The position numbers were made by a program, and so were the translations under genes. The notes beneath the pieces are model-generated. The model searched no databases. It was not told the DNA's origin and saw only the letters and a list, made by a program, of their open reading frames with translations. From an uncultured Chitinophagaceae bacterium (GTDB lineage: Bacteria; Bacteroidota; Bacteroidia; Chitinophagales; Chitinophagaceae), in assembly GCA_937858715.1 (NCBI GenBank), contig CALLZY010000208.1, forward strand, positions 1 to 36,143: 36,143 nt of DNA, given 5' to 3'. This document shows, one piece after another, positions 1 through 27,640 of this stretch (within the stretch, counting starts at the first letter, position 1; every line of letters begins with the position of its first letter).

Positions 1-494
1 CCTTCAATACTACGACTGCTCATATCGTTCCCAATGGAATATCCAACTATTTTACGGGAAGATGTTACTACCAAAGTAAGTTCCGGTTCAGGTACATTCC
101 AATTGCTGTCTTGTCTTATACGAACGAATTCATCCGGTCCTGCGGTTCGATAAGCCGTGGCCTTAAAAAATAATTCCGGCCTTTCAGCTTCGTACACTTT
201 GTCATAAAAAACAGATGCTCCGCTTTTTTCACTTTCCTCCATTCTCGCTTCTTTACTTCTGAGATAAGTAACCCCGGCAGCCCAGATTTCCTGGGAACCG
301 ACAGGAGCCGTCAGCCTAAGCTTTTTCAGAACATCCGATTTACCACTCGAAGAAAGACCTTGTATCGCAGAAGAAAGAAAACTGTACAAATCATCCCTGT
401 TAATAAGAATATCCCAATCCTTATATGGCAACTCATAATACTGCTCCTTAAATACTGCAGCAACGCCATCAGTATGCTTGTATAACTTTATCAT
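1..494 (-). CDS. Fumarylacetoacetate hydrolase family protein (3' part off window)
   Basis: The first 164 residues were read directly from the complement, starting with ATG at 494-492; the reading frame is open to base 1, so the C-terminus is missing. FAH-fold hallmarks are visible: WAAGVTYLRSKEAR near residue 72, a YDKVYEAERPELFFKA stretch, PEPEL (two acidic metal ligands) and GNDMSSR (a third). This wording resembles the 2-keto-3-deoxy-pentonate dehydratase branch more than the diketo-acid hydrolase branch, but that is recalled family knowledge, not a search. The likely role is cytoplasmic: dehydrating or cleaving a 2-keto-3-deoxy sugar acid. Its ATG overlaps the TGA of the upstream symporter by four bases (ATGA), so the two are probably translationally coupled. 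The substrate cannot be fixed from the partial gene. Confidence 0.82.
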   Translation of the reverse strand, partial: MIKLYKHTDGVAAVFKEQYYELPYKDWDILINRDDLYSFLSSAIQGLSSSGKSDVLKKLRLTAPVGSQEIWAAGVTYLRSKEARMEESEKSGASVFYDKVYEAERPELFFKATAYRTAGPDEFVRIRQDSNWNVPEPELTLVVTSSRKIVGYSIGNDMSSRSIE

Positions 495-6205: not shown

Positions 6206-8992
6206 TTATTGTTCTGTCGAAAAATTAAACCACAGCACCATTTTTAATGCACGGCTTTTATCTTTTTCGTAATCGTAAAAAATATTTTTGAAGCCCATGC
6301 GGCCTGTAGTTTCATTGCGCTGATTTTTTGTGCCAATGCTGCTGATGCCCTGCATAAAGGAAATGTCACCCGAAGGAAACAATGGTTCATAATTGTGCCA
6401 TTGGTCCGTTTTCCAAGCGGGGGTGAAAAGGCGCAGGAACATATCTTCGGTTTCACTTACTACTGTAAAGCGATTATTTTTTGTAAAAAAATACCCCCCG
6501 TAAAAATTGGAATGATAGCCTTTGAACTCAGGATAAACCCAGGGAGATTCACCGGTCTCCGTATTATTATAAGTCTTACTCCACACACCAAACTGGTTGC
6601 CCTTCATACGGTTTTTCCACACACGGTAAGGGCCATTGCCCATATAAGTAACAGACTTTATTTCATTTTCAGGGAATGAAAAATTAATGCCTGCGAAACT
6701 TGTGAAGTATGCTCCCGGAAAATACTGGACTTCCAGTTGCAGCCAGCCGGATGGATAGACAGTCCATTTTATTGTATTATAGGAATCATTTTTATCAAAC
6801 ACCGATTCTATAACAAGGTTTTTTCCATCTGCGTAATGTTTAATGCCTTTGAAATTATTGATTCCCTCCTGAATGACAGGTCCGTTATTGAAAGGCAAAT
6901 CACCCTTTGCATTCTTCACCGAAACAAGCAAACCACTATTCTTATTCATTACAACCATAACATCTTTCACGGTAATAGTTAGCAATGAATCAGCTTCTGA
7001 CAGAGAAACCTTGTCGTTCCCTTCCTTTACAAGCATTCTTTCAGCCGTACGTTGCGGACCGCTGATCAGAAAACTCCATGTAAATAATTCCCTTTTATAA
7101 TTATCAGTTGCAGTCACATATAACACATCATAACCACTCCATCCGGTCGGTAGTTGCAGTTGCAGCGTACCTTTTTCGCCAGGTCTGATATCCGGAGAAA
7201 CAGCTGAACCGGTTTTTTCATCTATGTTTCTCAAACCAAATTTGCGGAGTTTCCAGCTAAAACTGCATTGATTTGTGTTTGTAAAATGATACCGGTTTTC
7301 AATACTAAGTTTCCCATCAAACGCACCGGTAATTTCTTTCCGTTCAAAATGTACTGGACTCCATATTTCTTTGATGGCATAGAAACTACCTTCCCGTTCG
7401 TGGTGCGGGCCGAGTATGCCATCAGCAGCACGGTGCTTATCGGTGTCAAGAGAATCATTTAAATCCTTTCTTACCACGGCGTTGTCTGCAAAGTCCCACA
7501 AAAAACCACCGGCACCCAGGGGATTGTGCCACATCTTTTCCCAGTAATCTTCCAGCCCTGCACCATGACCGCCATCAAACCAGCCGTGCAAAAATTCAGT
7601 AGGCATCACAATTTCTCTTCCATATTCATAGTTGCCGATGCCGTAATTATATTCCCGGTAATGCTGTGTTTCCACGCCGTTAAACAACTGCCATGGATGT
7701 ACAACAGGCCGCTTTTGAAAATCAAACTCAGTAAAGTATTTATCAAGTTCCAGATTATGCCCGCCCTCATTACCATTTGCCCACATTATTACAGATGGAT
7801 GATTGGTATCATGATCAATCATTTCTTTCAGCAATTTCTTTCCGGTTTCCGTGTCATAATTGCCGTGCCAGCCTGCCAGTTCATCCATCACAAACAAACC
7901 GAGTGAATCGCATACATCCAAAAAATGATCATCCGGCGGGTAATGGCTCATGCGAACAGCATTCATGTTCATCTCTTTCATCAGCAGCACATCTTCAATA
8001 CTTATTTGCTTGCTGGTTGTCCGTCCGGTTTCCGGACGAAAGGAATGGCGGTTCACTCCCTTAAATTTCATTTTTACACCGTTGATGTAAATGCCGTCTC
8101 TTTGTTTGAGTTCAACAGTGCGAAATCCAAATTTTTGTGTAACAGTATGCAGAACTTTGTTGCCCTTATAAAGTGTAAAAACCGCTTTGTATAAATTAGG
8201 AGTTTCAGGAGTCCATAACTTATGAGGAGAAAAAAATTGACTTTTGCTTATTGATACGTGACGGTAAACATTATCCTGTTCCGTTCCTTTTGAACTTGCA
8301 AGCAATTTACCATCCATAGAATATAAGTCGGTTTTTACATCCGCAAACATGTCAACAGCTATGAAAGTTGCATGAAACTCTCCATCGGCTGTAGCATTAA
8401 TAGCTACATCTTCTATATAATTTACTGGTAGTATTTCCAACCACACCGGCCTGAAGATGCCGCCAAAAATCCAGTAATCACCTTTACGCTCTGCTTCATT
8501 CACCGATTGATTGGCAGAATGTTTTGCTACTGTTACTTCCAGTAAATTTTCCTCACCATACTTCAGCAGCTTCGTTATATCATACTTGAATGCATAGAAA
8601 GCACCTTGATGAATTTCGCCTGCTGACTTGCCATTTACTTTCACCTCTGCATCGGTCATCACGCCTTCAAACACAAGATTAATTGCTTTGCCTTTCCAAT
8701 TTGCAGGAACATTGAAGCGGTACTTGTACAATCCTTTTTCTTTTCCTCTTACACTATCTTTTGCATAACCATAATCGTATTTGCCAAAGCCCTGTAATTC
8801 CCAACAAGAAGGGACAGCAATCGTTGTCCATTTATTGGCATTCATGCCGCCGGTACACATGAAGTCCCATTGCTTGGTGTTATCACTACCGGTGCCGGAC
8901 AGATAAATTTTCTCTGTCTGTTGACAGAATAAATCAAAAGACAAAATTGAAAAGCAAAAAGTCAGAATGATTTGATAATATTTTACACTCAT
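6206..8992 (-). CDS. GH2 beta-galactosidase-like glycoside hydrolase
   Basis: A 928-residue exported enzyme with a signal peptide ending near LFCQQ. The order is a jelly-roll sugar-binding domain (about 60-190, with FEGVMTDAEVKVNG), an immunoglobulin-like domain, a TIM barrel from about 300 (KFKGVNRHSFRPETGR, AVRMSHYPP), and long C-terminal beta domains. E409 in NGNEGG is the likely acid/base. E466 in MPTEFLHGW, followed by GLEDYWEKMW, is the likely nucleophile; this layout matches the LacZ subgroup. It probably removes beta-galactose, though beta-glucuronide or arabinopyranoside activity is possible in a pectin locus. Its TAA is immediately followed by the GTG of the GH78-BNR gene, and it lies 17 bases after the MGH1-like gene, so all three are co-transcribed. 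Confidence 0.88.
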   Translation of the reverse strand: MSVKYYQIILTFCFSILSFDLFCQQTEKIYLSGTGSDNTKQWDFMCTGGMNANKWTTIAVPSCWELQGFGKYDYGYAKDSVRGKEKGLYKYRFNVPANWKGKAINLVFEGVMTDAEVKVNGKSAGEIHQGAFYAFKYDITKLLKYGEENLLEVTVAKHSANQSVNEAERKGDYWIFGGIFRPVWLEILPVNYIEDVAINATADGEFHATFIAVDMFADVKTDLYSMDGKLLASSKGTEQDNVYRHVSISKSQFFSPHKLWTPETPNLYKAVFTLYKGNKVLHTVTQKFGFRTVELKQRDGIYINGVKMKFKGVNRHSFRPETGRTTSKQISIEDVLLMKEMNMNAVRMSHYPPDDHFLDVCDSLGLFVMDELAGWHGNYDTETGKKLLKEMIDHDTNHPSVIMWANGNEGGHNLELDKYFTEFDFQKRPVVHPWQLFNGVETQHYREYNYGIGNYEYGREIVMPTEFLHGWFDGGHGAGLEDYWEKMWHNPLGAGGFLWDFADNAVVRKDLNDSLDTDKHRAADGILGPHHEREGSFYAIKEIWSPVHFERKEITGAFDGKLSIENRYHFTNTNQCSFSWKLRKFGLRNIDEKTGSAVSPDIRPGEKGTLQLQLPTGWSGYDVLYVTATDNYKRELFTWSFLISGPQRTAERMLVKEGNDKVSLSEADSLLTITVKDVMVVMNKNSGLLVSVKNAKGDLPFNNGPVIQEGINNFKGIKHYADGKNLVIESVFDKNDSYNTIKWTVYPSGWLQLEVQYFPGAYFTSFAGINFSFPENEIKSVTYMGNGPYRVWKNRMKGNQFGVWSKTYNNTETGESPWVYPEFKGYHSNFYGGYFFTKNNRFTVVSETEDMFLRLFTPAWKTDQWHNYEPLFPSGDISFMQGISSIGTKNQRNETTGRMGFKNIFYDYEKDKSRALKMVLWFNFSTEQ

Positions 8993-9030
8993 AATTCAAA
9001 GCTTATAGTTCATAGCTTACCAGTTAGCTT
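8993..9030. repeat. Short AAGCTATGAACTATAAGC repeat at a gene junction
   Basis: The complement reads GATAAGCTAACTGGTAAGC then TATGAACTATAAGCTTTGA, an array of degenerate AAGCTAT/AAGCTTT words. It spans the stop codon of the MGH1-like gene (9010-9012) and supplies its last residues, DKLTGKL. This is a weak call based on internal repetitiveness only. Confidence 0.35.
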
Positions 9031-10563
9031 ATCTAACTTCTCTCCAGCTGCTACCTTCTTTCCATTCACCAACACACTTAATCCTTTTCCTTTTTTATAT
9101 TTCGTCCCTGTTTTATCCCAGATGATAGTGATAATTTTTCCATGATACAGTACATTATCCAGGCAAAACCATTCCCATTTACTATCGGGCAATAGTGGGT
9201 TAACTTCAATTATATTATCAGCTCTCGGTCTCAAACCGACAAGGCCAGTAATAATTAAATCATTAAAGGTTGAGTGATTGTAATAGCGACTGCGTTCTTC
9301 ATCACCTTTTAACCAGAAGCCTGTCTTTTCATCTAAATATTCACCGATATATGGACGGCCACGATAGTATTGTGATTCAACATAAGTATTCAGTAATGAA
9401 AAATAATCGAAGTCAGTTACATAATCCTGCTTGTAATTATTCAGAAGATTAGCCATGGCAGTAAGCGTTTGTGATGTTGCAAAAGGCCACACAGCTCCAT
9501 CCCATTCGCATTTGCAGCAGCCATGTGTGCGGAACTGCGGATGACTTCTGTCTGCAGTTGTAATACCAAAGGGCGCACAGAATGTCTTGGTATCCATCAG
9601 GCTTTTCCAGGCAATGCTGTAATTGCTATCGGGCATATTAAAGTACCAGGGAATAAAACCGATTTCCTCTTTTACATTAGCAAGCGTATCGCCATGTTCT
9701 TTTCTTACTTCAAAGAAATTATGTTCGTTATTCCAGAGCTTTGAGGCCAGGATATTCTTAATCGAATCAGCTTTACCTAAATATATGGCTTGAGAAAGCC
9801 TTCGAAGCGGATCCCATCCAGAAATTTCTGCAATAGCTTTTACATTACCATACATATACCCATTAATACTCGGCCTTGGATTTTTTTCTTTTCTGCCACC
9901 ACTGATCGTTTCTTCCATTGCATCTCTTACATCATATTGCCAGAATAGTCCATCCGGATTTCTTCTTTCTTTTTCCCATTCGGCATAATTAGCCTCCATA
10001 TCGGGCAGCAAGTCAACAACAAATTTCTTATCTCCATTTACCAAATAACGATTCCATATCGCATCTTCATTCCAGCCGCTATAAAAACGAAGTTTATTAA
10101 GTGGCTTGCCGTTATTACCACGATACCAGATATGCAGGTTATCATCCATGTACTTGTTTTCATGCAGCCAACGGCTTTCATAAATATGATGTCCTAAACC
10201 GCTGCTGATAAGATTGTATTTATCTGCGTAACTGCGCTGTACTAAAAATTCAGTAAACGCAAAACCTATATCTGTTTTTTTAATGTGCTTCCGCAATGTC
10301 CACCAGCGGAAATAAAATATTTCTTCAAAATTTTGTTGCGGGCATTCAAAGAGTGGGATGTTCTTTTTCATCCAGTCCCAGCTTTGTGCATTGGGAATTG
10401 CCTGCTCTATATTAGGAGTTTCCATTGTGTTGAAATAATCAACATAATGTTTGAAGTTTGCCTGTTTGAGGATGAAGGGTTTTGTTTGTGCATGAACAAT
10501 ATTCCCCACAAAGGCGCAAAGCACAAAAAGGGAGGTAATATATTTTATTACATTCTTCATCAT
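9010..10563 (-). CDS. MGH1-like (GH63/trehalase-type) glycoside hydrolase, exported
   Basis: A 517-residue protein with a signal peptide ending VHAQ (cleavage near residue 26). The sequence EEIFYFRWWTLRKHI (80-94), GLGHHIYESRWL (122-133) and SGWNEDAIW (162-170) belong to the (alpha/alpha)6-barrel group annotated as mannosylglycerate-hydrolase-like. DVRDAMEETISGG (211-223) holds acidic residues that are candidates for catalysis. The barrel fold and the exported position suggest exo-removal of a sugar from imported oligosaccharide in the periplasm, but no activity can be assigned. Its ATG overlaps the kinase TGA by four bases (10560-10563), tying it to the catabolic genes. The C-terminal tail is encoded by a short repeat. 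Confidence 0.75.
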   Translation of the reverse strand: MMKNVIKYITSLFVLCAFVGNIVHAQTKPFILKQANFKHYVDYFNTMETPNIEQAIPNAQSWDWMKKNIPLFECPQQNFEEIFYFRWWTLRKHIKKTDIGFAFTEFLVQRSYADKYNLISSGLGHHIYESRWLHENKYMDDNLHIWYRGNNGKPLNKLRFYSGWNEDAIWNRYLVNGDKKFVVDLLPDMEANYAEWEKERRNPDGLFWQYDVRDAMEETISGGRKEKNPRPSINGYMYGNVKAIAEISGWDPLRRLSQAIYLGKADSIKNILASKLWNNEHNFFEVRKEHGDTLANVKEEIGFIPWYFNMPDSNYSIAWKSLMDTKTFCAPFGITTADRSHPQFRTHGCCKCEWDGAVWPFATSQTLTAMANLLNNYKQDYVTDFDYFSLLNTYVESQYYRGRPYIGEYLDEKTGFWLKGDEERSRYYNHSTFNDLIITGLVGLRPRADNIIEVNPLLPDSKWEWFCLDNVLYHGKIITIIWDKTGTKYKKGKGLSVLVNGKKVAAGEKLDKLTGKL

Positions 10564-12047
10564 TTTGCAATTTCTTTTTTCCAGCCTTCATATCCCTGCT
10601 GCACAGTACCGTTTTGCAGATTCGGTTGGTGCAATTTTTTATCAGCATTTAATTGTTTTAAATTTTCAATGCTTTCATATACCCCGGCCTGCAAGCCCGC
10701 CAAATATGCTGCCCCTAAAGCTGACACATCGGGCATACCGATGGTGGCAACAGTCTTATTCAGCAAATCGGTTAAAAACTGGGTAACAAATTTATTTGAG
10801 GTGATGCCACCATCTGCATTCAGCTCTTTTAAAGTTACAGCAGCATCTTTTTCCATTGCAACAATCACATCTTTAATTTGATAAGGAATACTTTCTAACG
10901 CTGCCCTTACCAAATGATTTTTTGTGGTACCGAAACTCATGCCTGTTAACGATGCCCTGCGTTCCATATCCCAATGCGGTGAACCGAGACCGCTGAATGC
11001 AGGAATTAAATACACTCCGCCATTATCAGCAATGGCATTAGCCATAGCTTCTGTTTTCTTACTGTCGGTAAATAGATGCAATTCATTTTTCAGCCACTCA
11101 ATAGTGGCTCCGCAACTTACAATCACACCTTCCAGTGCATAATCAATCCTGTTGCCAGCGCTCCAGCATACGGTTGTTACCATTCCGTTTTGTGACTGCA
11201 CAGGCTTGCTGCCGATATTCATTAATATGCTGCAGCCGGTGCCGAGTGTTGCTTTGGCAGTGCCAGTTTCAAAACAGCCTTCGCCAAATGCAGCGGCATG
11301 TGAATCGCCGATTAAAGCGGTTATAGTAACTGACGTACTGAATAATCCTCCTAAAGTTGTTTCGCCAAAATAAGCCGATGAAGATTTTATTTCAGGAAGA
11401 CTGATACCTGTTAAACCAAATTCATTTATCAACTCAGCATCCCACTCCAATGTGCTTAGATTAAACAGCAATGTTCTGGATGCATTGGTATAGTCAGTGG
11501 CGTATTGTTTTCCGTTGGTGAATTTGTACAACAGCCATGTATCTACTGTGCCGAAAAATGCTTTACCGTTTTTAACAGCCGCTTTAATGGCTTCATTGTT
11601 TTGTACCAGCCATATTAATTTGGTGGCGGAAAAATAAGGGTCAATAATTAATCCGGTTTTTTCATTCACCCTTTGTGATATTCCTCTTTGCTTTAGCTCC
11701 TCACAAATTTGAACACTCCGTTTGCATTGCCACACCACTGCATTATGCAATGGCTTGCCATTTTCATCCCACAGCATAAAAGTTTCCCGTTGATTGGAAA
11801 CACCAATGGCTGCAATATCATTTTTATCAAATCCTTGTTCTGCAAACCGGGCTAAGCATTTCTTTACTGATGCCAGCACATTTTGATAAATTACTTCGGG
11901 CTCCTGTTCTACAAATCCGTTGGATAAATAATGGGTATGTAAATCTTCTGAACCTTTGGCAATGGCCTGCCCGCTATCATCAAAGATTAATGATTTGGTG
12001 GAGCTGGTGCCCTGGTCAATGGCAAGAATGTATTTTTTGTTCGACAT
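10560..12047 (-). CDS. FGGY carbohydrate kinase, GlpK-like with altered substrate pocket (candidate apulose kinase)
   Basis: A 495-residue cytoplasmic kinase matching glycerol kinase along its length. It has AIDQGTSSTKS (ATP loop, 9-19), SNQRET with R87/E88, VVWQC with W106, DPYFS with Y138, and D248 in IGDSH as catalytic base. These correspond to E. coli GlpK R83, E84, W103, Y135 and D245. Two pocket residues differ: the position of Q246 is S249, and the position of F270, which packs on glycerol, is S273 (GTGCSILMNIG). That should enlarge the site, so a pentulose is a better guess than glycerol. It lies between the split transketolase and the MGH1-like gene, in series with the isomerase, which supports phosphorylation of a ketopentose such as apulose. 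Confidence 0.85.
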   Translation of the reverse strand: MSNKKYILAIDQGTSSTKSLIFDDSGQAIAKGSEDLHTHYLSNGFVEQEPEVIYQNVLASVKKCLARFAEQGFDKNDIAAIGVSNQRETFMLWDENGKPLHNAVVWQCKRSVQICEELKQRGISQRVNEKTGLIIDPYFSATKLIWLVQNNEAIKAAVKNGKAFFGTVDTWLLYKFTNGKQYATDYTNASRTLLFNLSTLEWDAELINEFGLTGISLPEIKSSSAYFGETTLGGLFSTSVTITALIGDSHAAAFGEGCFETGTAKATLGTGCSILMNIGSKPVQSQNGMVTTVCWSAGNRIDYALEGVIVSCGATIEWLKNELHLFTDSKKTEAMANAIADNGGVYLIPAFSGLGSPHWDMERRASLTGMSFGTTKNHLVRAALESIPYQIKDVIVAMEKDAAVTLKELNADGGITSNKFVTQFLTDLLNKTVATIGMPDVSALGAAYLAGLQAGVYESIENLKQLNADKKLHQPNLQNGTVQQGYEGWKKEIAK

Positions 12048-12058
12048 GCTATATTTTT

Positions 12059-12103
12059 AAACCCGCAAAGAACTTCAAGTGTTTCGCAAAGAAGCGCAAA
12101 GCT
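12059..12103. repeat. CGCAAAG-type repeat between transketolase C half and kinase
   Basis: The plus strand reads ACCCGCAAAGAACTTCAAG then TGTTTCGCAAAGAAGCGCAAAG. Three CGCAAAG words in 45 bases resemble the palindromic element at 6029-6113. It fills most of the 56-base gap between these two genes. No terminator hairpin with a T tract is visible. Confidence 0.5.
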
Positions 12104-13066
12104 CTATTTCAACAATTTCATTACTTTATCCGAAATTCCATCCTCACTGATTCCATAATGCTTAAATATATCTCCCTGCGGACCGGCTACTGTATATTCA
12201 TCCGGAATACCCATTATCTTAAATGGCTTTAAAATGCCGCTTTGCATTAAGAACGAGGCCACCGCTTCTCCCAATCCTCCATTTATGCTGTGCTCTTCAA
12301 CTGTTACAATTCCTTTACATTTTTTTGAAAGTGATAAAATCAATTTTGTATCCAAAGGCTTAATGGTATGCATGCTTACCACAGTTACGGCAATACCATT
12401 TGCTTTTAGTTTTTCTGCTGCTTTCACAGCAGGATACACCGTTTCTCCATTTGCAATGATGGCAACATCATCTCCTTCTGTTATCAAACGGCCTTTGCCA
12501 AATTCAAAACCATCACTGTTATCTTCTTTCAGTTTAGGCATTACCTTTTTGCCAAAGCGTAAGTAAACCGGCACTTTACTTGCTGCTGCCAGTTCGGTGG
12601 CTTTTTCTGTTTCAAAATTATCTGCCGGAGTTACAATGATGATATTATTAATGGCACGCAACACAGCAAAATCATGCAGGCTGTGGTGTGTGCTGCCCAA
12701 TGCGCCATAACTTACACCGGCGCTGATGCCAACAACCGTTGCCGGGTTATTACTATAGCAGATATCATTCTTTATTTGCTCCAACGACCTGGCAGTCAAA
12801 AAGCAGGCCGGTGAAACAGCAAATACCTTTTTGCCACAACTTGCTAAACCTGCTGCAACGCCTACCAAATTTTGTTCTGCAATACCTACTTCCACAATTT
12901 GTTCAGGAAACTTTTTGCCAAAGGGAACTAATTTACCTGAGCCTCTGCTGTCACTTGTCACAGCTATAATATTCTTATCAGACTCTGCCAGCCGTTGCAG
13001 TGTTTCAGAAAATACATCCTGATTAGGGTTATCTGCACCTTCACTAAATTTTACTTCTGCTGCCAT
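12104..13066 (-). CDS. Transketolase, C-terminal subunit
   Basis: A 320-residue protein covering the pyrimidine-binding and C-terminal domains of transketolase. VEVGIAEQN carries E64, the glutamate that activates thiamine diphosphate from the partner chain. THHSLHDFAVLRA (127-139) carries the conserved histidine cluster, and TSDSRGSGKL (37-46) is in the usual place. The N-terminal half is the next gene upstream, 41 bases away, so the two form a heteromeric enzyme. The split architecture is common in bacteria and archaea and is also the form described for apulose-4-phosphate transketolase. The reaction would move a two-carbon unit from a ketose phosphate. The fold is certain; the substrate is inferred only from neighbours. 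Confidence 0.92.
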   Translation of the reverse strand: MAAEVKFSEGADNPNQDVFSETLQRLAESDKNIIAVTSDSRGSGKLVPFGKKFPEQIVEVGIAEQNLVGVAAGLASCGKKVFAVSPACFLTARSLEQIKNDICYSNNPATVVGISAGVSYGALGSTHHSLHDFAVLRAINNIIIVTPADNFETEKATELAAASKVPVYLRFGKKVMPKLKEDNSDGFEFGKGRLITEGDDVAIIANGETVYPAVKAAEKLKANGIAVTVVSMHTIKPLDTKLILSLSKKCKGIVTVEEHSINGGLGEAVASFLMQSGILKPFKIMGIPDEYTVAGPQGDIFKHYGISEDGISDKVMKLLK

Positions 13067-13069
13067 TAT

Positions 13070-13107
13070 ATTTGAAAATTGAATATTATTTATTGATTAT
13101 TGAACAT
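13070..13107. repeat. AT-rich TTGAATATT/TTGATTATTGAA junction sequence
   Basis: The 41-base gap between the transketolase halves reads GAAAATTGAATATTATTTAT then TGATTATTGAACATTTACAA on the plus strand. It is made of degenerate TTGAA/TTGAT words and resembles the low-complexity junction sequences seen elsewhere in this window. No regulatory role is evident. Confidence 0.3.
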
Positions 13108-13932
13108 TTACAATGCCTGCAACGCTGCGTCCAGCTCTTGCTGTGCCTGTTCATACTGTTCTTTATTTGGTACTCCATGGTGCCACTTCAGTTCATTCTC
13201 CATATAACTTACGCCTTTTCCTTTAGTGGTATGAGCAATTATTACCGATGGTTTTCCTTTTTCAAATGGCAAGGCAGCAAATGCCGCTTTCAGTTCATCA
13301 ATATCATTACCGTTTACTTCTTTTACTGCCCAGCCAAATGCTTTCCATTTTTCATCTAACGGGTCAGTGTTCATTACTTCTGAAGTCGGTGCTGTAATCT
13401 GCAATGTATTTTTATCTACAATAGCACATAGATTATCCAACTTATAATGAGCAGCGCTTAATGCCGCTTCCCAGTTGCTTCCTTCTGGCAGTTCGCCATC
13501 ACCCATCAGTGTAAAGACTTTGTAATCCTTCTTATCCATTTTAGCAGCTATGGCCATACCCGTACAGATAGGCAAACCATGCCCGAGTGCACCGGTATTT
13601 TGCTCCACTCCTTTTACTTTTTTTGTAGGATGGCCTATATAATGTGATTTGTATTTACACATTGTTTCTAAATCACTCTCCGGGAAAAATCCTTTATCAG
13701 CCAGTACCACATACAAGGCTTCCACACAATGACCTTTGCTTTGTACGTACCTGTCCCGATCCGGTGATGAGAAATTATCAGGCGATACATTCAGCACTTC
13801 GTTATACAGGACATTCAAAATATCAGTGCTCGACAAACTGCCACCGGTGTGGCCGGCATTAGCATCCAGTATATACTTCAGGATATTTTTCCTGTAGTGA
13901 ATTGATTTTTGTTTTAATTCTTTCGTTGTCAT
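13108..13932 (-). CDS. Transketolase, N-terminal (thiamine diphosphate-binding) subunit
   Basis: A 274-residue protein with the diphosphate-binding half of transketolase. The GDGE motif at 144-147, followed by EGSNWEAALSAA and ending in DKN (N175), is the classic ThDP/magnesium signature. Histidines H28 (AGHTGG), H68 (SKGH) and H118 (GALGHGL), plus a late KWHHG, match the active-site histidines of full-length transketolase. The length is typical of split N-subunits. It is cotranscribed with the C-subunit (gap 41 bases) and lies 79 bases downstream of the isomerase. Together with the kinase, the likely order is isomerase, kinase, then transketolase. It may be a dedicated enzyme for a pentulose phosphate rather than the housekeeping transketolase. 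Confidence 0.92.
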   Translation of the reverse strand: MTTKELKQKSIHYRKNILKYILDANAGHTGGSLSSTDILNVLYNEVLNVSPDNFSSPDRDRYVQSKGHCVEALYVVLADKGFFPESDLETMCKYKSHYIGHPTKKVKGVEQNTGALGHGLPICTGMAIAAKMDKKDYKVFTLMGDGELPEGSNWEAALSAAHYKLDNLCAIVDKNTLQITAPTSEVMNTDPLDEKWKAFGWAVKEVNGNDIDELKAAFAALPFEKGKPSVIIAHTTKGKGVSYMENELKWHHGVPNKEQYEQAQQELDAALQAL

Positions 13933-13944
13933 AATTTATCTCTC

Positions 13945-14001
13945 ACAGATAACACAGATAAAGACTGATGAATATAATCAGCGGAAATCCGTGTCATCTG
14001 T
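13945..14001. repeat. Imperfect hairpin repeat, ACAGATAACACAGAT family
   Basis: Arm ACAGATAACACAGAT (13945-13959) pairs with ATCCGTGTCATCTGT (13987-14001) at 13 of 15 positions, with a 27-base loop. It lies in the 79-base gap between the isomerase and transketolase N-subunit genes. The words ACACAGATAAA and AATCCGT recur at 2150-2205. There is no T tract after the hairpin on the minus strand, so a dispersed repeat is more likely than a terminator. Confidence 0.6.
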
Positions 14002-14011
14002 AAGTTGTTTA

Positions 14012-15427
14012 TCATTCATGATTATAGGTTTCCCAACCCAAATAATTTTCAAACGCTTCTTTTAATATACCAGCCGTTTTACTGGCATTCATCACCACAT
14101 GATGTTCAAAACCGTTACGGCAAACATAGCTCATCAATCCCTGTAAATTATTGATCTGTGCGACGGCACGGTTTCCAAATGTGTCCAGTGCATCATTGGT
14201 CAGTTCGCCTTCGCCCACATAAGCCTTGATGATTCCTTTGCAATCATCGGTGCTGATTCGACCGTAAGTCAGCGGCATAGTAGGTGTGCGGCCATCCAGT
14301 GCGCCATATGTATTTTCAGTACCCACAGTTGTTCCTAAAATGGGCGCTGTGCTTATAGAGATATCCGGCAAAAATGATTTAGCCCAGTTGCCGCAATGGA
14401 ATAGCACACATTTAGTATCATCATTGGCATAATTATTATTCCAGTCAACCAGCGCAGAAGGCGAACCGCTTGCCAACTGCATCGCATACATGCTGAGTGT
14501 GCCCGTAACATCCACTTCACAAGCAGATGGCAGCATGTTCTCACTCATCATGCTCATGCTGGTGCACACATTACATCCGTAATTCTTCTGTATCGAAGTC
14601 CAGCATTGAATTGCAGTGGCATCTAAACTATTTTCCTGCATAAAGTCTGCAAGCACCACATCCAGTTTTGCAATCTGCACCAATTTATCCGGCGGCGTTA
14701 AACCAGTGTTGGTGTATGCATGAATTTTTTCCAGTTTTTCTTTCACCGCTTTATCATCGGCTGTTAATTTATTGGCATTGCCTAAAATTTCACTTAAGTC
14801 AACTGTAGTTACTGAAATACCATTGCGCTGCAATAATTTTTCGCTGTAACGAACCGTATTAAAAGCCGTTGGCCTTGCACCCACTGCGCCAATACGCACC
14901 TTGCGCAAACCATTTACCACCCGGCAGGTGGCGGTAAAGTTTTTTAAATCTGTGATGAACGATTCATCTCTGGGGCTGACCACATGTTTGGTGGTGAGTG
15001 AATATTTTATGCCGTACTGATATAGGTTATTACACACCGAAATTTTTCCACACCAGGCATCTCTCCTGTTCACCACATCCATCTTACCCAAATCATCAGG
15101 ATAACCCTGTATTAAAACCGGGACCGTTAATCCGGACAATTTAATTGTTTCTGCCACACCTTTTTCATCGCCAAAATTTGGAAGTACCACCAATATGCCG
15201 TCAATTTCATCCGCATGTTTTTTAAATAACGCCGCACATTTTTGTGCTTCCGCAAATGTTTCAACGCCGCCGAGTTTACTATCGGCATCACTTAACATTA
15301 CTGGTGCAATATTTAATTGTTTGAACAGGTCTAAAATTTCCGTTCTTGCTTCGGCCACCAGTTTATCAGGAAAAAAATCACGGTTGCCGATAATAACACC
15401 GAGTGTACTGTTTTTTATTGCTGCCAT
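14012..15427 (-). CDS. L-fucose/L-arabinose isomerase family protein (candidate apiose isomerase)
   Basis: A 471-residue cytoplasmic aldose-ketose isomerase of the FucI/AraA fold. Candidate Mn ligands by motif are E265 (FMQENSLDATAIQCW), E304/D306 (CEVDVTG) and H442/H443 (GFEHHV), the expected acid-acid-histidine pattern. AVGARPTAFNTVRY (181-194) is the typical inter-domain stretch. It is somewhat shorter than E. coli FucI (about 590) and AraA (about 500), fitting the shorter 'L-fucose/L-arabinose isomerase family' group of uncertain specificity. Only 4 bases separate it from the BNR gene. With the kinase and split transketolase downstream it probably makes the ketose that is then phosphorylated. 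L-arabinose, L-fucose and D-apiose are all chemically possible; the GH140 neighbour favours apiose. Confidence 0.85.
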   Translation of the reverse strand: MAAIKNSTLGVIIGNRDFFPDKLVAEARTEILDLFKQLNIAPVMLSDADSKLGGVETFAEAQKCAALFKKHADEIDGILVVLPNFGDEKGVAETIKLSGLTVPVLIQGYPDDLGKMDVVNRRDAWCGKISVCNNLYQYGIKYSLTTKHVVSPRDESFITDLKNFTATCRVVNGLRKVRIGAVGARPTAFNTVRYSEKLLQRNGISVTTVDLSEILGNANKLTADDKAVKEKLEKIHAYTNTGLTPPDKLVQIAKLDVVLADFMQENSLDATAIQCWTSIQKNYGCNVCTSMSMMSENMLPSACEVDVTGTLSMYAMQLASGSPSALVDWNNNYANDDTKCVLFHCGNWAKSFLPDISISTAPILGTTVGTENTYGALDGRTPTMPLTYGRISTDDCKGIIKAYVGEGELTNDALDTFGNRAVAQINNLQGLMSYVCRNGFEHHVVMNASKTAGILKEAFENYLGWETYNHE

Positions 15428-15431
15428 TGTA

Positions 15432-17234
15432 TTATAAAGCTTTTGTTTTTAAGTAATGAATTTGAAATACTGCTTCTTTGTCTCTTGCATCTGCATTGGG
15501 CAAATCATAATCCTGGTCAGTAGGTGTATCTGCATTGGGAAAGCGCCGCACTGCACCCGTTCTGAAAACAATCCTTTCAACAGACGCCACAGGCGCAAAA
15601 CATAAATTATTATTGGGCTTGCCACCGTTAATAGTTACAGTATAAAATCTCGTTGTGGTGTTCAGTTCAATTTTAAAACTGAGCATTTCACCTGCATTGT
15701 ATTTACCCAACGATTTATTACGATAGCCTTGTTTGGTTAAAATACTTCCGGTTGAATCTAACATGATACGTAAACAGGGAGTACCTTTTGCATCTGCCAG
15801 TTCAATTTGCAATTCGCCGGTATTATTTTGTTGTGGTGTTACAGAAAACTCAACAACACAATTTTTTGATGCAGGAAAAACTCTTTCGGCTTTTGCATAA
15901 TCGAAGGGGTCGCTGTCGGCCAATGTAAGCGCATTGTCTTTTACAATAGCCCTGCACCAAACAGGGCTGTATAAATTCCAGCTGTTGACTGTTGACGCTT
16001 TTGAAAATTTTTCATCGATAGGTTTCAGTTCTTTATCTTTTACCGGCACCGGGATTTTACTCACCCATATATCTTCTTTGTTCATGCTGTAACTCACCCA
16101 CATATTTCCATCAGCAGGTTTGCCATCCATTTCCTGTATACCACGTACATACTGCGGACCATAACTTTTATAGGCCCCACCATACCGCAGTGATGTTATT
16201 TCTCCATTTACGAGTAAGAGGTTTTTATATTTCAAACCATCATCACTTACACTTACTGCAAGCGGCCAGCGGAATTCAGAGGGATTGTACACCGTTGCAT
16301 ATTTACCATCACTGGTTTTTTGCCCCCAAATTTTTGCATTGGCATTTACAAAGCCCGGCGCACGGGTTGGGCCATACTGCCATGTCTTACCATTGTCTTT
16401 AGAAATACTTGTAAGTGCATATTTCCACAAAGCAACCACCCTGCCATCCTTCAGCCTGTAATAGCTAAATGCTTTAAAATCTTTTTGCAGTGGAATTAAC
16501 GGGTCGTTACGGTCAGCCTCCTCCACTGTCTGCATCATTAATAAAGGAGTGCTTAAAATTTCTTCGCAAGCTGCAGTTAAATCCTTGTCACCTGATGATT
16601 TGTAAAACGGATACGAAGTATTTTGCTCATTAAAAGAATGATTGTAGCGCAGAAAATAAATTTCACCGAAGCTTCCATCTTTTTTTATTTCTCGTATTAC
16701 ACGGCCCACACCATTACCGTCATTTGGATCATCTTTAGGTGCCAGCACAATACCGTAATAAGCCAGTGCATATAACTTACCGGCTTTACTGGTATAAAAA
16801 CCCATCCGCTGGTGCATTACGGCAAAAGTATTTTTGGCTGCTTCTTTCACCCCTTCTTTTGTAAACCCATCCGGAATTTTATATGGTGGGAAAATAATTA
16901 CTGGGTCAGTCCAGCTATACCCATCTTTTGATGACTGCAATAATGTTTGCCCTGGCGGAATATGCTCACCAATAGAATCGCTCAAATATTCCAAATAAAA
17001 AGTGTTGTTCCAATAAGCCAGCATGGTGGCATGGTTATATGTCCATGAAGTGGTTCTGTTTTTATCTGCCCTGTTAGCCCTCATGGTTTGTATATTATGT
17101 ACACCAATAGCGGGAGACAACTGGCCGTGGTGATAATCTACATTAGAAAGCGTACCACCCACATAACGGACAGTATCTTGCCCAATTAATAATGAGTAAT
17201 TAATAATTAATAATATCGTAATTGCTAAACGCAT
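15432..17234 (-). CDS. Exported BNR/sialidase-like propeller protein
   Basis: A 600-residue protein with a signal peptide (MRLAITILLIINYSLLIGQ). It carries Asp-box-like motifs SSKDGYSW (101-108) and SKDNGKTW (near 280), and WNNTFYLEYL and MHQRMGFYTSKAGKLYALAYYG are propeller strands. The last ~190 residues (from about 410) look like a concanavalin-type beta sandwich. Sialic acid is not expected in plant pectin. The known analogue is a propeller hydrolase releasing the ulosonic-type acid DHA from rhamnogalacturonan II (GH143), which would suit a GH140 neighbour; this is analogy, not a match I could test. The signal peptide core is encoded by a TTATTAATT tract. The 51-base gap upstream contains a hairpin. 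Confidence 0.7.
   Translation of the reverse strand: MRLAITILLIINYSLLIGQDTVRYVGGTLSNVDYHHGQLSPAIGVHNIQTMRANRADKNRTTSWTYNHATMLAYWNNTFYLEYLSDSIGEHIPPGQTLLQSSKDGYSWTDPVIIFPPYKIPDGFTKEGVKEAAKNTFAVMHQRMGFYTSKAGKLYALAYYGIVLAPKDDPNDGNGVGRVIREIKKDGSFGEIYFLRYNHSFNEQNTSYPFYKSSGDKDLTAACEEILSTPLLMMQTVEEADRNDPLIPLQKDFKAFSYYRLKDGRVVALWKYALTSISKDNGKTWQYGPTRAPGFVNANAKIWGQKTSDGKYATVYNPSEFRWPLAVSVSDDGLKYKNLLLVNGEITSLRYGGAYKSYGPQYVRGIQEMDGKPADGNMWVSYSMNKEDIWVSKIPVPVKDKELKPIDEKFSKASTVNSWNLYSPVWCRAIVKDNALTLADSDPFDYAKAERVFPASKNCVVEFSVTPQQNNTGELQIELADAKGTPCLRIMLDSTGSILTKQGYRNKSLGKYNAGEMLSFKIELNTTTRFYTVTINGGKPNNNLCFAPVASVERIVFRTGAVRRFPNADTPTDQDYDLPNADARDKEAVFQIHYLKTKAL
17188..17222 (-). repeat. TTATTAATT tract encoding a signal peptide core
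   Basis: The complement reads ATATTATTAATTATTAATTA then CTCATTATTAATT, a degenerate array of ATTATTAATT units. It encodes ILLIINYSLLI, the hydrophobic core of the BNR protein's signal peptide. A similar tract encodes the core of the next gene's signal peptide (18166-18205). Confidence 0.5.
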
Positions 17235-17257
17235 AATTTTTTCAACAGCTTTTATTC

Positions 17258-17294
17258 AAACTGCTGACGGGGTTTAGAGCCGCCGTCAGGGTTT
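17258..17294. repeat. CTGACGG hairpin repeat overlapping the GH43 stop codon
   Basis: CTGACGG (17264-17270) and CCGTCAG (17283-17289) are perfect 7-base arms with a 12-base loop, extended by AAAC (17258-17261) and GTTT (17291-17294). The TGA of the GH43 gene (17288-17286) lies inside the 3' arm. No T tract follows on the minus strand beyond ATTC-type sequence, so this resembles a REP-like element, though partial termination between GH43 and the BNR gene is possible. Confidence 0.65.
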
Positions 17295-18209
17295 GGCGAA
17301 GTTTCTTTTTAGTTGTTTTATAAATTTCTTTTCCACTGGTACAATCGTTCCGTGTTTATGTCCCGCAGGTACACTCACTTTTGCTGTCACATTTTCAAAA
17401 TGCACAAAATCTTTTGTAGCAGATACCTCATAAATTTTCTTCCGGTAACTGTCGTAATAAATCAGCCATTCATTTTTCAATTTCACCACCGAAGGGCCTT
17501 CCGTGAAATTATCAGTGAAGGCTTTTGATACATTCCTCCATGGACCAACAGGCGTTTCGCTAAAAGCCACTTTTACATTTCTTTCCGGACGGGTATTATC
17601 TTTCAGCACCAGCACATAATCGCAATTTGCCCGTTTTACAATCACTGCATCAATTACACTAAAGCCGGGGTCATAAAATAGTTTTGTTTCGCTAAATGTT
17701 TTAAAATCTTTTGTTTCCGTATAGTACATCCGGTGATTATTGCTGTCTTCTTCAATACCCCGTTCAAATCTTCCGGGTATGCAACTGGCCCAGATAATGA
17801 TGTACTGCTGCTGTACATCATCGTAAAACAATTCAGGAGCCCAAACATTCACGGTAGTGAGTTCTTTATCCATTACAGAAATGAAGCGCTGCCCACTCCA
17901 GTGTATTAAATCTTTTGATGAGGCATAGCCAAACCCCATATCACCTCTCCAGCTGCTGGTCCATACCAAATGAAATGTACCATCCGGCCCTTGCACCATG
18001 CTGGGGTCTCTCATCACTTTTTGCTTACCCACTTCTGGCTTCAACAACACAGTATCCACATCATTCCATATTCTCCCATCGTAGCTGTACAGCATTCGCA
18101 GGCCAGCATCGGCAGGTTCATGAAAAGAAGTGAATAAATATGCCTTCTTATTGCAGGAAGCAAGAAGAATTAATAATAAACAATTAACAATTAATAATTT
18201 CAGCCGCAT
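17286..18209 (-). CDS. GH43 family glycosidase lipoprotein
   Basis: A 307-residue five-bladed propeller enzyme anchored as a lipoprotein: the lipobox LASC places the modified cysteine at C19. The GH43 catalytic triad is visible as D68 (MRDPSM, base), D187 (VIDAVIV, pKa modulator) and E237 (FTEGPSV, acid). WAPELFYD (123-130) is a further family hallmark. GH43 enzymes usually remove alpha-L-arabinofuranose, beta-xylose or beta-galactose from plant side chains, and any of these would fit pectin. It sits 5 bases after the GH140 gene and 51 bases before the BNR gene. The last codons and the stop fall into a hairpin repeat, and the signal peptide core is encoded by a TTAATT-rich tract. Confidence 0.88.
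   Translation of the reverse strand: MRLKLLIVNCLLLILLASCNKKAYLFTSFHEPADAGLRMLYSYDGRIWNDVDTVLLKPEVGKQKVMRDPSMVQGPDGTFHLVWTSSWRGDMGFGYASSKDLIHWSGQRFISVMDKELTTVNVWAPELFYDDVQQQYIIIWASCIPGRFERGIEEDSNNHRMYYTETKDFKTFSETKLFYDPGFSVIDAVIVKRANCDYVLVLKDNTRPERNVKVAFSETPVGPWRNVSKAFTDNFTEGPSVVKLKNEWLIYYDSYRKKIYEVSATKDFVHFENVTAKVSVPAGHKHGTIVPVEKKFIKQLKRNFAKP
18166..18205 (-). repeat. TTAATTGTTAATTG tract encoding a lipoprotein signal core
   Basis: The complement reads AAATTATTAATTGTTAATTG then TTTATTATTAATTCTTCTTGC, repeating TTAATT words. It encodes KLLIVNCLLLILLA, the hydrophobic part of the GH43 lipoprotein signal. It resembles the tract at 17188-17222. Confidence 0.5.
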
Positions 18210-18214
18210 AATTA

Positions 18215-19645
18215 TTACTTCTCTAAAATGAGCACCCAGTCGTTTCCATTTTGTTTTTCACCGGGGGGATTAAAACTTACAACTCCCTTATTTTTAAAAG
18301 CTGGTATTTTCTCTTTTGTTCCGGTCCGCGGATTAAACCAGTTACCCTTACTAGCTATAAATTCTAAATAACGGGTATTCGCCTTAAACTCTTTTCCATC
18401 ATACACATAAAACAGTGCAAAATTTTTCCCTTTAGTCGCCAGTACTCTTTCATACTTTTCACCATTCTCAACGACCAATTCCTGCGCAGGCATCCTGTCG
18501 AAATAGGAGTACGACTCCATCAATTTTTTCAAATGTCTCATTTGCCCCGCTGCTTCAGCCATCAATCCTGTTTTCCAATCCTGCCTTGGGAAAAAGGAAG
18601 CATCCTTGTCTCCCTGGTTGTAGTATTGCATTACCGCATTATGCCCATATGTAAAACCGGCACCACCGGCAAACACACTCCAGTAGGCATAACGACGGAT
18701 ATCCGCTGCATTCCAGTAGCCATCTGCAGTATCATGCAAACCGTATGGAATGTCTTCATAACTTGGCTCACCATCCAATGTCGGCTTCACTGGCTCCATA
18801 GCATAGTCTTCTTCAATATATTTCCAGTTGTCCTCCCCAAAATGTCTTCTCTCCTTTGAAGAAGTGTCTTGTGCATAACTTTTATGTCCGCTCTGAAACA
18901 TGTTGAAGTCCAACCAAAGCGACTGATGAAACCAATCTGTACTGCTCGTCCTTCCCCTCGGGTGAAATGTCATCAAATGATTATTGTCAAAATTTTTAAT
19001 AGTGCTGCCAATTTTCTCCCAAACTGCATATCCATCTTTCCCGGGGATGTCACCGCCATTCAGCCAAATGATATTGGCTTTACTTTTATACCGCTTCGCC
19101 AAAAACTTTGCATACACCTCCGCCTGCTGCTCGTTTATCTTACCACTCTTTACATTGCTGCCCCATGTAGGTACAAGTGCCATGTATATGCCTCTTTTTG
19201 CTGCTTCGTCAACAACGTAATCTACATGATCCCAGTAATCATATTGCAACGAGTCACTAAAACTATTGCCTTTAGTTATTGCCGGCTTTGATACGTCGAA
19301 ATTCTCTAACGCCCAGTCACCGTAAGCATTCTTTGTGTTATTGAAATCATGCAGCAGCATAGCCTGCACCACATTAAAGCCTTGCTTTTTTCTTGTGTCT
19401 AAATAAAGTGTTACATCTTCCCTTTTACATTTTACAAACAGCAGCCATCCGGTATCACCCATCCAGAAAAAAGGCTTGCCATCCTTTGTTTGAAAATATC
19501 TTTTGTTGGCAGAAACTTTCAATGGCTGCATTTGGCCATTGCCGCCTATCCCAATCAATAGCATTGCCACGACCAGTAATTTTTTCAGGTTACCAGCAGC
19601 AGTCATTCTGCTCATCGTTCCTTGCGTCGCACACTTGTACATCAT
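18215..19645 (-). CDS. GH140-type (DUF4038) apiosidase-like glycoside hydrolase
   Basis: A 476-residue exported TIM-barrel enzyme of the DUF4038/apiosidase-like family. It has FFWMGDTGWLLF (59-70), WLNGGDIPG with D199 (acid/base) and LDGEPSYE with E293 (nucleophile). The 94-residue spacing is close to that reported for the Bacteroides GH140 apiosidase catalytic pair, as I recall it. The last ~90 residues form the small beta domain usual for the family. GH140 cleaves D-apiose linked to galacturonic acid in rhamnogalacturonan II. It is 5 bases downstream of the MFS transporter gene and precedes GH43. The frame starts at ATG 19645 inside a repeat copy; a more ordinary signal peptide starts at residue 14 (MTAAGNLKKLL, base 19606), which I consider likelier. 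Confidence 0.87.
   Translation of the reverse strand: MMYKCATQGTMSRMTAAGNLKKLLVVAMLLIGIGGNGQMQPLKVSANKRYFQTKDGKPFFWMGDTGWLLFVKCKREDVTLYLDTRKKQGFNVVQAMLLHDFNNTKNAYGDWALENFDVSKPAITKGNSFSDSLQYDYWDHVDYVVDEAAKRGIYMALVPTWGSNVKSGKINEQQAEVYAKFLAKRYKSKANIIWLNGGDIPGKDGYAVWEKIGSTIKNFDNNHLMTFHPRGRTSSTDWFHQSLWLDFNMFQSGHKSYAQDTSSKERRHFGEDNWKYIEEDYAMEPVKPTLDGEPSYEDIPYGLHDTADGYWNAADIRRYAYWSVFAGGAGFTYGHNAVMQYYNQGDKDASFFPRQDWKTGLMAEAAGQMRHLKKLMESYSYFDRMPAQELVVENGEKYERVLATKGKNFALFYVYDGKEFKANTRYLEFIASKGNWFNPRTGTKEKIPAFKNKGVVSFNPPGEKQNGNDWVLILEK
19606..19645 (-). repeat. Copy 3 of the GTGCGACGCAA repeat, covering a start codon
   Basis: The complement reads ATGATGTACAAGTGTGCGAC then GCAAGGAACGATGAGCAG. The core GTGCGACGCAA and the trailing CGATGA match the copies at 2087-2122 and 6140-6175. 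It holds the first ATG of the GH140 frame and its first 13 codons. Confidence 0.55.
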
Positions 19646-19650
19646 GAATT

Positions 19651-20952
19651 CTATTCAGCTTTTTTTAATACAGGTTTATAGCCTTTTATCCCAAAGTATA
19701 ATATCACTAAAAAACAAATAAGCGGAACTATATAGCCCACCTGTATGTTATCATTTGTAGCATCAATAATTCTTCCCATCACAAATGGAATAATAGCTCC
19801 ACCAACGATTGACATCACCAGCAGTGAACCACCAATTTTTGTTTCCTTATCCAGGCCTACAAGTCCCAATGCAAAGATGGTAGGGAACATGATGCTCATA
19901 AAGAAACCCATCGCACCCAAAGAGTAAATCACCATCTTTCCATCGGTAACAATCGCAAGAGTGCAAAGAAGTGCCGCCATCAACGCATACACCCTCAGTA
20001 ATTTATCAGATGCAAAATACCTGGTTAATGCCACCCCGATGAAACGGCCAGAGAGAAACAATGTGCCATAAATGCCTCCCAGGTAATACCCTGCCATCTT
20101 TTCATCAACACCGCCGTATTTCATTGCCATACGGACAAAGAAACTGGTTACACATACCTGGGCTCCTACATAAGCGAACTGTGCAATTACCGCCCACTTT
20201 AAATGCTTGTGCCGGAAGGCTTTTATAAACTCGGATAACTTTGAAGTTTTTGAATCATCCTTAACTTCCGGCAACTTAAAAAAGAAAAATAGTATTGCCA
20301 CCAGTATAAAACCTCCTGCAATGAACATATAGGGAGTTTTTACTGAGGCCGACTCCATATCCAGATAGGCGGTACGCTCCACAACTGACATGGCAGATAA
20401 TTCCGCTTCGGTATGATTGATGCCTGAAAAAATGAATATTGAACCAACAATCGGGGCAATTACAACAGCAAGACCATTTATGGCCGCCCCAAGATTTAAA
20501 CGGCTGCTGGCAGTTTCGGGTTCTCCCAAAATAGCAGAATAAGGATTGGCTGCTGTTTCAAGAATTGCAATACCGCAACCCACTACAAACAACGCAAATA
20601 AAAACAAAGGGTAGATTCGTCCACCTGCAGCCGGTAAAAATATCAGAGAACCTATTCCAGCCAGAATCAACCCCGCAATGATACCATTTTTATAACCCCA
20701 TTTTTTTAAAATCATCCCCGCCGGAATTGCCATCAGAAAATAAGCGAAATACACTACCTGGTCAATATAAATGCTTTGCGTATTATTAAGCTGGCAGGCT
20801 TTTTTTAAATGCGGAATCAATATTCCGTTCAGGTTATGAACCATTCCCCAAAGAAAAAACAAGAAAGTAACCAGGATAAATGGCACCACAAATTCCCTTT
20901 TAGTAAGTGACTTATGACCGGAATTCTTAAACACTGTTTGAGTTGGCTGCAT
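19651..20952 (-). CDS. FucP-like MFS sugar:proton symporter
   Basis: A 433-residue inner-membrane protein with about 12 hydrophobic segments, the size of L-fucose/glucose-galactose permeases. Family marks include FVTFLFFLWGMVHNLNGILIP-like helix 1 (30-49), GCGIAILETAANPY (125-138), where the ETAANPY motif is typical of the FucP group, and a GRIID segment near the end. It imports a neutral monosaccharide with protons. Directly upstream of GH140 and in the same run as the isomerase-kinase-transketolase genes, it is the natural importer for the pentose released by the apiosidase. Fucose, arabinose or galactose cannot be excluded. Confidence 0.9.
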   Translation of the reverse strand: MQPTQTVFKNSGHKSLTKREFVVPFILVTFLFFLWGMVHNLNGILIPHLKKACQLNNTQSIYIDQVVYFAYFLMAIPAGMILKKWGYKNGIIAGLILAGIGSLIFLPAAGGRIYPLFLFALFVVGCGIAILETAANPYSAILGEPETASSRLNLGAAINGLAVVIAPIVGSIFIFSGINHTEAELSAMSVVERTAYLDMESASVKTPYMFIAGGFILVAILFFFFKLPEVKDDSKTSKLSEFIKAFRHKHLKWAVIAQFAYVGAQVCVTSFFVRMAMKYGGVDEKMAGYYLGGIYGTLFLSGRFIGVALTRYFASDKLLRVYALMAALLCTLAIVTDGKMVIYSLGAMGFFMSIMFPTIFALGLVGLDKETKIGGSLLVMSIVGGAIIPFVMGRIIDATNDNIQVGYIVPLICFLVILYFGIKGYKPVLKKAE

Positions 20953-27622: not shown

Positions 27623-27640
27623 TTTTTCTTTTTTTTGTGA

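Follow-up and report, generated by a model that had tools for sequence, protein, structure and literature searches.

The 36,143-nucleotide contig CALLZY010000208.1 of an uncultured Chitinophagaceae bacterium (the window, meaning the whole stretch that was analysed) appears to be a rhamnogalacturonan II (RG-II) utilization locus with a complete route for D-apiose at its centre, a reading to which we assign a probability of roughly 0.88. Profile searches of the window proteins placed genes for a glycoside hydrolase (GH) of family 142, an FGGY kinase, a split transketolase, an isomerase, GH143, a GH43-like protein, a GH140 apiosidase and a FucP-like importer on the minus strand between 9010 and 20952, inside a SusCD pectin locus (Table 1). 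The pathway is already known, and the window is a variant of it in wiring and importer. Our reading is based on gene content and order, on relatedness to apiose clusters, on substitutions in the kinase pocket, and on the finding that the ATP-binding cassette (ABC) binding protein and the DUF2291 protein of related operons are unmatched in this genome. A route from release to catabolism of apiose had been proposed in an original prediction made from the letters of the window. Pfam and NCBIfam profiles recovered all of its genes in place on the minus strand, the SusCD context was confirmed by a SusC/SusD pair at 25757-30808, and the sequence relatedness of the isomerase, the transketolase and the kinase pocket supports the proposed route.

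We infer all of the substrates and reactions of this route from sequence. GH140 would free D-apiose from RG-II side chains, presumably in the periplasm, and the FucP-like permease, or another symporter, would carry the sugar into the cell. The isomerase would then convert D-apiose to D-apulose, the GlpK-like kinase would phosphorylate this to D-apulose 4-phosphate, and the two-subunit transketolase would transfer a two-carbon unit to glyceraldehyde 3-phosphate to yield xylulose 5-phosphate and dihydroxyacetone phosphate, a scheme reportedly set out by Carter and colleagues in 2018. The aplK, aptA and aptB genes of Escherichia coli SE15 served as references for our comparisons.

The GGD and DGE motifs of the predicted apiosidase align with those of its structural matches, and the acidic pair that had been proposed for it, D199 and E293, was confirmed, together with a match to the GH140 family profile. 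The gap of 5 bases that separates its gene from that of the FucP-like importer was likewise confirmed. GH143 and GH142 are encoded by two genes, between which the catabolic block lies. The solved chain 5mqr, which we take to be BT1020 of the Bacteroides thetaiotaomicron RG-II system with GH143 and GH142 as its halves, holds both domains in one protein of 1108 residues; we also assume the GH143 label and activity for the protein that matches PF24067. Because the two window proteins correspond to the two halves of BT1020, RG-II is the likely source polysaccharide. Indeed, a SusC/SusD pair occurs together with GH140, GH142 and GH143, the combination by which we recognize an RG-II utilization locus, and the pectin locus is rounded out by a pectate-lyase-like protein, GH2 and GH78. 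RG-II is the most complex pectin known, and apiose is the point of its borate cross-link.

The isomerase carries a Fucose_iso_C domain (99 bits) and, compared over 464 residues, is 55-56% identical to its counterparts in the Klebsiella, Rahnella and Sodalis clusters of a plasmid collection, where the remaining 12 of 15 isomerase records show 23-28% identity. Each of these three enterobacterial isomerases lies beside a transketolase pair, an FGGY kinase, a 'sugar-binding transcriptional regulator' and an ABC importer with DUF2291, and the kinases and transketolases of the clusters share 70-79% identity with their E. coli SE15 counterparts. According to one report, the apiose genes of E. coli are named aplK, aptA and aptB, strains that carry the cluster grow on D-apiose, and two oxidoreductases stand where Pectobacterium has apsI (PMC13001218). 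By elimination, we infer that the isomerase of the Klebsiella-type clusters is ApsI. The suggestion that the window isomerase belongs to a different family from the described apiose isomerase was not upheld, and a new isomerase family was rejected given this clear enterobacterial relative. More distant isomerases, 26% and 24% identical, accompany the same downstream set in Listeria and Monoglobus, respectively. A phmmer search of the PDB with the window isomerase gave no match at E 0.1, and blastp with E. coli FucI gave chance matches only; these results had raised the idea of the new family rejected above. We set aside an AlphaFold model of low confidence (mean predicted local distance difference test score 53, predicted template modelling score 0.46), for which the 26 aligned relatives were 77-95% identical, and the fold is therefore taken from PF02952 alone.

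In a 25-row tree, which used 13 of the 77 locus rows, transketolase subunit A falls in a clade (support 99/96) of 23 apiose-type subunits, among them those from E. coli, Klebsiella, Rahnella, Sodalis, Listeria and Monoglobus. Just two rows lie outside the apiose type: a paralogue from the window's own genome (L013), and one from a Collinsella pair whose visible surroundings hold no apiose genes. Subunit B was compared by identity only; it is 42-46% identical to the subunits of E. coli (42%), Listeria and Monoglobus (45-46%), and its best own-genome paralogues reach 36% and 31%. In line with the original prediction, the transketolase sides with apiose-type enzymes, by the tree for subunit A and by identity for subunit B.

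The window kinase differs from glycerol kinase where the substrate would be held. We take the glycerol pocket of GlpK to be formed by R83, E84, W103, Y135, D245, Q246 and F270. The window kinase keeps five of these seven residues and has Ser in place of both Q246 and F270, so that its pocket does depart from that of glycerol kinase, as had been proposed. Ser-Ser is found at positions 246 and 270 in all 60 rows compared (59 loci and the window) and in 6/6 further kinases of apiose clusters. Gln-Phe is found in 31/31 GlpKs sampled, where the 30 GlpK loci from the family are the top-scoring ones, and matches of 664-691 bits (G097, G038, G087) and partial matches (G024, G040, G053) lie outside the count. 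Tyr135 is kept in the 60 rows and in Listeria and Monoglobus, and is Leu in four enterobacterial kinases. A 40-row tree, built by a quick method and showing long branches, drew on 10 of the 30 family GlpKs and on 13 of the 59 kinases from the loci. Its rows include 23 with Ser-Ser and 16 with Gln-Phe, a single change suffices to account for the two states, and GlpK forms its own clade (support 98) with the window kinase outside.

The same division is apparent across 117 genomes of the family (G numbers; G000 is the window's own genome). Full-length scores over the GlpK-model cut-off fall into two classes, a higher one of 664-860 bits, in which one match, at 739, is partial, and a lower one of 546-588 bits. 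Kinases of the lower class are present in 14 genomes, namely 13/13 that are isomerase-positive and 1/104 that are isomerase-negative (G024), and in each of the 13 the kinase lies within ~10 kb of the isomerase. A separate GlpK of at least 733 bits is present in 11 of the 13 and in neither G000 nor G106. The Apiosidase family exceeds its cut-off in 12/13 isomerase-positive and 31/104 isomerase-negative genomes (Fisher p 1.9e-5, a value that overstates independence since the genomes are related).

Gene neighbourhoods in relatives (L numbers) were compared in the best 80 of 547 confirmed isomerase matches, a sample that favours close relatives; all are titled Bacteroidota except L082 (Williamsia), perhaps a mis-binned contig. 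The transketolase pair lies beside the isomerase in 77/80 loci, the other three being contigs of less than 5 kb, and this adjacency is therefore more than chance. The genes typically run in the order DeoR regulator, isomerase, transketolase A and B, binding protein, DUF2291, ATPase, permease and kinase. A kinase match over half of the query was found in 60/80 loci, the other 20 including contig ends and being subject to a 10-kb flank limit. Most of these loci are apiose operons with an ABC importer, in which the order of isomerase and transketolase pair is that of the window; a binding protein is present in 68/80 and a DeoR regulator in 54/80, whereas the window has neither.

The window departs from this arrangement in its importer. 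Its FucP-like permease passes the TIGR00885 fucP cut-off of 280 but misses that of NF007524 fucP (316 against 427). We take D46, E135 and Q159 of E. coli FucP to be key sites, with D46 and Q159 important for L-fucose. In 5/5 apiose-linked copies, window included, D46 is replaced by Gly and Q159 by Ala, with E135 and N162 kept, so that just one member of the D46/E135 pair is retained in the window permease; a comparison FucP (L135, 51% identical, neighbours unexamined) has Pro46 and Gln159, and a further comparison row (L137) could not be aligned. FucP lies beside GH140 in G000, G024 and G026. Among the 14 genomes with the lower kinase class, the ABC binding protein is found near the isomerase at 67-74% identity in 11 and has a match of at most 21% in G000, G024 and G073, and DUF2291 has no match in G000, with 2/14 control genomes matching. 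Because both proteins are unmatched in G000 and the binding protein is present in 11 of these 14 genomes, the lineage of the window most likely lost the ABC importer, although the ATPase and permease were not searched genome-wide. Two sister loci (L014 and L017) match the window locus over the block but contain the ABC set, the operon runs of L015, L022 and L027 are without it, the stretches seen of L019 and G073 show neither this set nor an adjacent FucP, and G026 has both of them. In L027 the 119-residue start of an ABC binding protein lies between transketolase and kinase (L027:6238-6597) with the importer genes otherwise missing, and this fragment looks like a remnant of importer loss.

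We consider the FucP-like permease the likely apiose importer. Alternatively, it might import L-fucose, L-galactose or 2-O-methyl-fucose from RG-II, with apiose entering by another carrier such as the sodium:solute symporter of the SSF family that is also encoded in the window. This has an appreciable chance of being right, though it is not the reading that we prefer: the permease does pass a fucP cut-off, G026 holds both FucP and the ABC set, and L019 and G073 manage without FucP. However, the two sites that we associate with fucose are changed in every apiose-linked copy, the gene is a near neighbour of GH140, and G000 and G024, in which FucP adjoins GH140, have no match to the ABC binding protein.

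Several observations weigh against the D-apiose route as a whole. GH140 occurs in only 8/80 isomerase loci (all eight with GH143), and a full-score Apiosidase gene lies within 5 kb of the isomerase in only 4/13 family genomes (G000, G026, G073, G109), with weaker matches of 54-60 bits at that distance in G058 and G076; the catabolic set is therefore not tied to GH140 as such. The reference for the isomerase is its set of enterobacterial cluster relatives and not the characterised Pectobacterium ApsI itself. The ABC binding protein of a sister locus (L014:14187-15140) is closest in the PDB to the ribose-binding protein 2fn8 of Thermotoga, and ribose may be a ligand of it. A nucleoside-hydrolase-like protein in 27/79 operon runs (L062, with its isomerase reading frame uncalled, was dropped from these counts) could also point to ribosides. 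It is conceivable, then, that the isomerase, kinase and transketolase act on a different RG-II sugar, such as L-galactose or L-fucose, or on free D-ribose, and that GH140 is a mere neighbour. We regard this as very unlikely, since in Listeria and Monoglobus related sets have Apiosidase-family neighbours (313 and 60 bits, respectively), E. coli strains with a related set grow on apiose in the report cited above, Apiosidase genes are enriched in isomerase-positive genomes, and the usual routes for ribose and L-fucose involve no transketolase pair of their own.

The remaining points against the D-apiose route concern the kinase. Its best NCBIfam model is GlpK NF000756, whose cut-off it passes (582 against 498), it falls just below the cut-off of TIGR01311 (564 against 590), and it is 41% identical to E. 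coli GlpK and only 35% to E. coli AplK. In the tree the Ser-Ser kinases are split: six from enterobacteria and alphaproteobacteria group with GlpK (support 82) instead of with their Bacteroidota counterparts, and at the position of Tyr135, a residue shared by GlpK and the window kinase, the six carry Leu or Met. The scan with the GlpK model found no higher-class GlpK in the window's genome or G106, and in the former no second GlpK-like gene was found, the next FGGY match being 23% identical. The expectation that the kinase would not cluster with glycerol enzymes thus held in part: the window kinase is outside the GlpK clade and has the Ser-Ser pair of all 23 apiose-cluster kinases in the tree, yet it is nearer to GlpK overall and no single Ser-Ser clade exists. 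Were it a housekeeping glycerol kinase that sits in the locus by accident, the route would be incomplete or would use another kinase. Such a coincidence seems to us very improbable, given the Ser-Ser pair where all sampled GlpKs have Gln-Phe, the position of the window kinase in the tree, and the association of its score class with the isomerase in 13/13 genomes, 11 of which retain a separate GlpK.

Related gene sets occur outside the Bacteroidota. In Listeria (L006:5296-13086), a distant isomerase, a transketolase pair, a Ser-Ser 'glycerol kinase', a phosphotransferase system (PTS) importer and an Apiosidase-family gene stand in a row, which looks like an apiose cluster under another annotation. 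The nearest kinase in the plasmid collection is from Caballeronia (52% identity over 88% of the query) and lies beside a transketolase subunit, two dehydrogenase genes of the short-chain dehydrogenase/reductase (SDR) type and an ABC importer with DUF2291. In Shinella, a transketolase pair occurs together with a Ser-Ser kinase, an ABC importer and two SDR genes, with no isomerase in the stretch seen. The Caballeronia set is of a similar kind, its one visible transketolase subunit standing at the edge (L148:454-10139 and L152:1-8266); both resemble the E. coli form. A Croceibacterium plasmid (L147:1356-8232) carries a transketolase pair and a Ser-Ser kinase adjoining pectinesterase, GH28 and GH95, again with no isomerase in the stretch seen. 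Thermotoga maritima matches both Apiosidase and DUF2291, and its 'ribose' cluster may be worth revisiting.

The genes from 2231 to 36137 lie on a single strand with intergenic gaps of -4 to 167 bases, so that one transcription run is plausible; the window as a whole is a run of minus-strand genes with gaps of -4 to 180 bases. The DUF6298 protein had no PDB match at E 0.01 and holds the same position in sister RG-II loci (e.g. L014, L017, L019, L129 and L130). At 34184-35197 the window encodes a zinc-binding dehydrogenase, to which a G073 protein is 71% identical; a different sugar of RG-II may be the substrate of this enzyme. Gene content and order in G073 match those of the window over ~30 kb, but without FucP.

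Table 1 Features of the window, with candidate alternative release enzymes from other loci in the last row.
Feature	Coordinates	Strand	Evidence
GH140 apiosidase, predicted	18215..19645	-	PF13204 (Apiosidase) 381 bits, cut-off 26.5; phmmer to PDB 3kzs/5msy E 6e-115; D199/E293
FucP-like permease of the major facilitator superfamily, proposed apiose importer	19651..20952	-	TIGR00885 340 bits
D-apiose isomerase, ApsI type, putative	14012..15427	-	55-56% identity to enterobacterial cluster isomerase; PF02952
Apulose-4-phosphate transketolase subunit A (N part), AptA type, putative	13108..13932	-	51% to E. coli SE15 AptA
Apulose-4-phosphate transketolase subunit B (C part), AptB type, putative	12104..13066	-	42% to E. 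coli SE15 AptB
Apulose kinase (AplK function, GlpK-like FGGY kinase), putative	10560..12047	-	Ser at GlpK positions 246, 270
GH143, N-terminal BT1020 half	15432..17234	-	PF24067 BT_1020-like N-terminal propeller 385 bits
GH142, C-terminal BT1020 half	9010..10563	-	phmmer to 5mqr residues 619-1101, E 4e-211
GH43-like protein	17286..18209	-	PF22847 BT_3657-like_N 36 bits, cut-off 27; GH43 model 29, below cut-off 32
DUF6298 protein, 1002 residues	20971..23979	-	PF19815 812 bits
Pectate-lyase-like protein	24004..25644	-	no Pfam match; PDB 9buj pectate lyase E 9e-44
SusD-like protein	25757..27622	-	PF07980
SusC-like TonB-dependent transporter	27641..30808	-	PF13715 and PF07715
GH2	6206..8992	-	PF02836
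GH78 rhamnosidase fused to BNR_2 sialidase-like domain, one 1324-residue protein	2231..6205	-	PF17389 and PF13088
SSF sodium:solute symporter, alternative importer for a locus sugar	491..2050	-	PF00474 147 bits
DUF5060/DUF5605 proteins	L018:14799-16400, L028:19440-21059, L007:12565-14100		L028 by clustering only

Where GH140 is missing, other proteins may take its place. A protein cluster that carries nucleoside-hydrolase-like PF07632 (a label resting on one scanned member) is present in 31/80 loci in 48 copies (e.g. L018:11364-12869). It accounts for the 27/79 operon runs mentioned above, GH140 is found in 7/79, and no run has both (chance probability 0.046). G091, the sole isomerase-positive genome of the 13 without an Apiosidase match, has a PF07632 gene at a distance of 0.6 kb from that of the kinase and of ~8.5 kb from that of the isomerase. 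The PF07632 protein may provide a second means of apiose release; the furanose form is one that apiose shares with ribose. Counting against this, the exclusion is weak and G024, a fragmented assembly with no isomerase match, has short contigs with FucP-GH140 and a GH43-like gene on the one hand and kinase and PF07632 on the other, so that GH140 and PF07632 do not strictly exclude each other. Genes for DUF5060/DUF5605 proteins, which match Apiosidase weakly, likewise adjoin those of apiose catabolism in Bacteroidota and Monoglobus.

The window shares its enzyme set, related by sequence, with the D-apiose transketolase pathway (apsI, aplK, aptA, aptB; MetaCyc PWY-8089). In contrast to that pathway, the set stands inside a SusCD RG-II locus beside GH140, GH142 and GH143, and has a FucP-like permease and no ABC importer. 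The depolymerising families of the window are also those of the B. thetaiotaomicron RG-II degradome, which was reportedly described by Ndeh and colleagues in 2017 and is said to include BT1012 (GH140) and BT1020 (GH142/GH143). Unlike the single chain of BT1020, the halves in the window are two genes that flank the apiose catabolic genes. Among the titles and abstracts listed in searches of the openly licensed literature, we found none that combines GH140 with apiose catabolism within one SusCD locus, and do not claim that such a case is absent in print.

To our knowledge, work on RG-II stops at depolymerisation and work on apiose starts from the free sugar, and the locus described here would join the two. 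A broader view, which we put forward with considerable doubt, is that apiose metabolism is modular around a fixed core, the transketolase pair and the Ser-Ser kinase, with exchangeable release enzyme, importer and first step, and that the window is its RG-II/FucP form. If so, release could be by GH140, by a DUF5060-type apiosidase relative or by PF07632 as an unrecognised apiofuranosidase, import by an ABC, PTS or re-tuned FucP-type system, and the first step by an isomerase or a dehydrogenase pair; the weak exclusion of GH140 and PF07632 and the presence of both in G024 lower our confidence in this scheme. The proposed importer loss and the PF07632 association are directly testable predictions, and the two-residue kinase signature may offer a cheap way of finding apulose kinases among proteins labelled 'glycerol kinase'.

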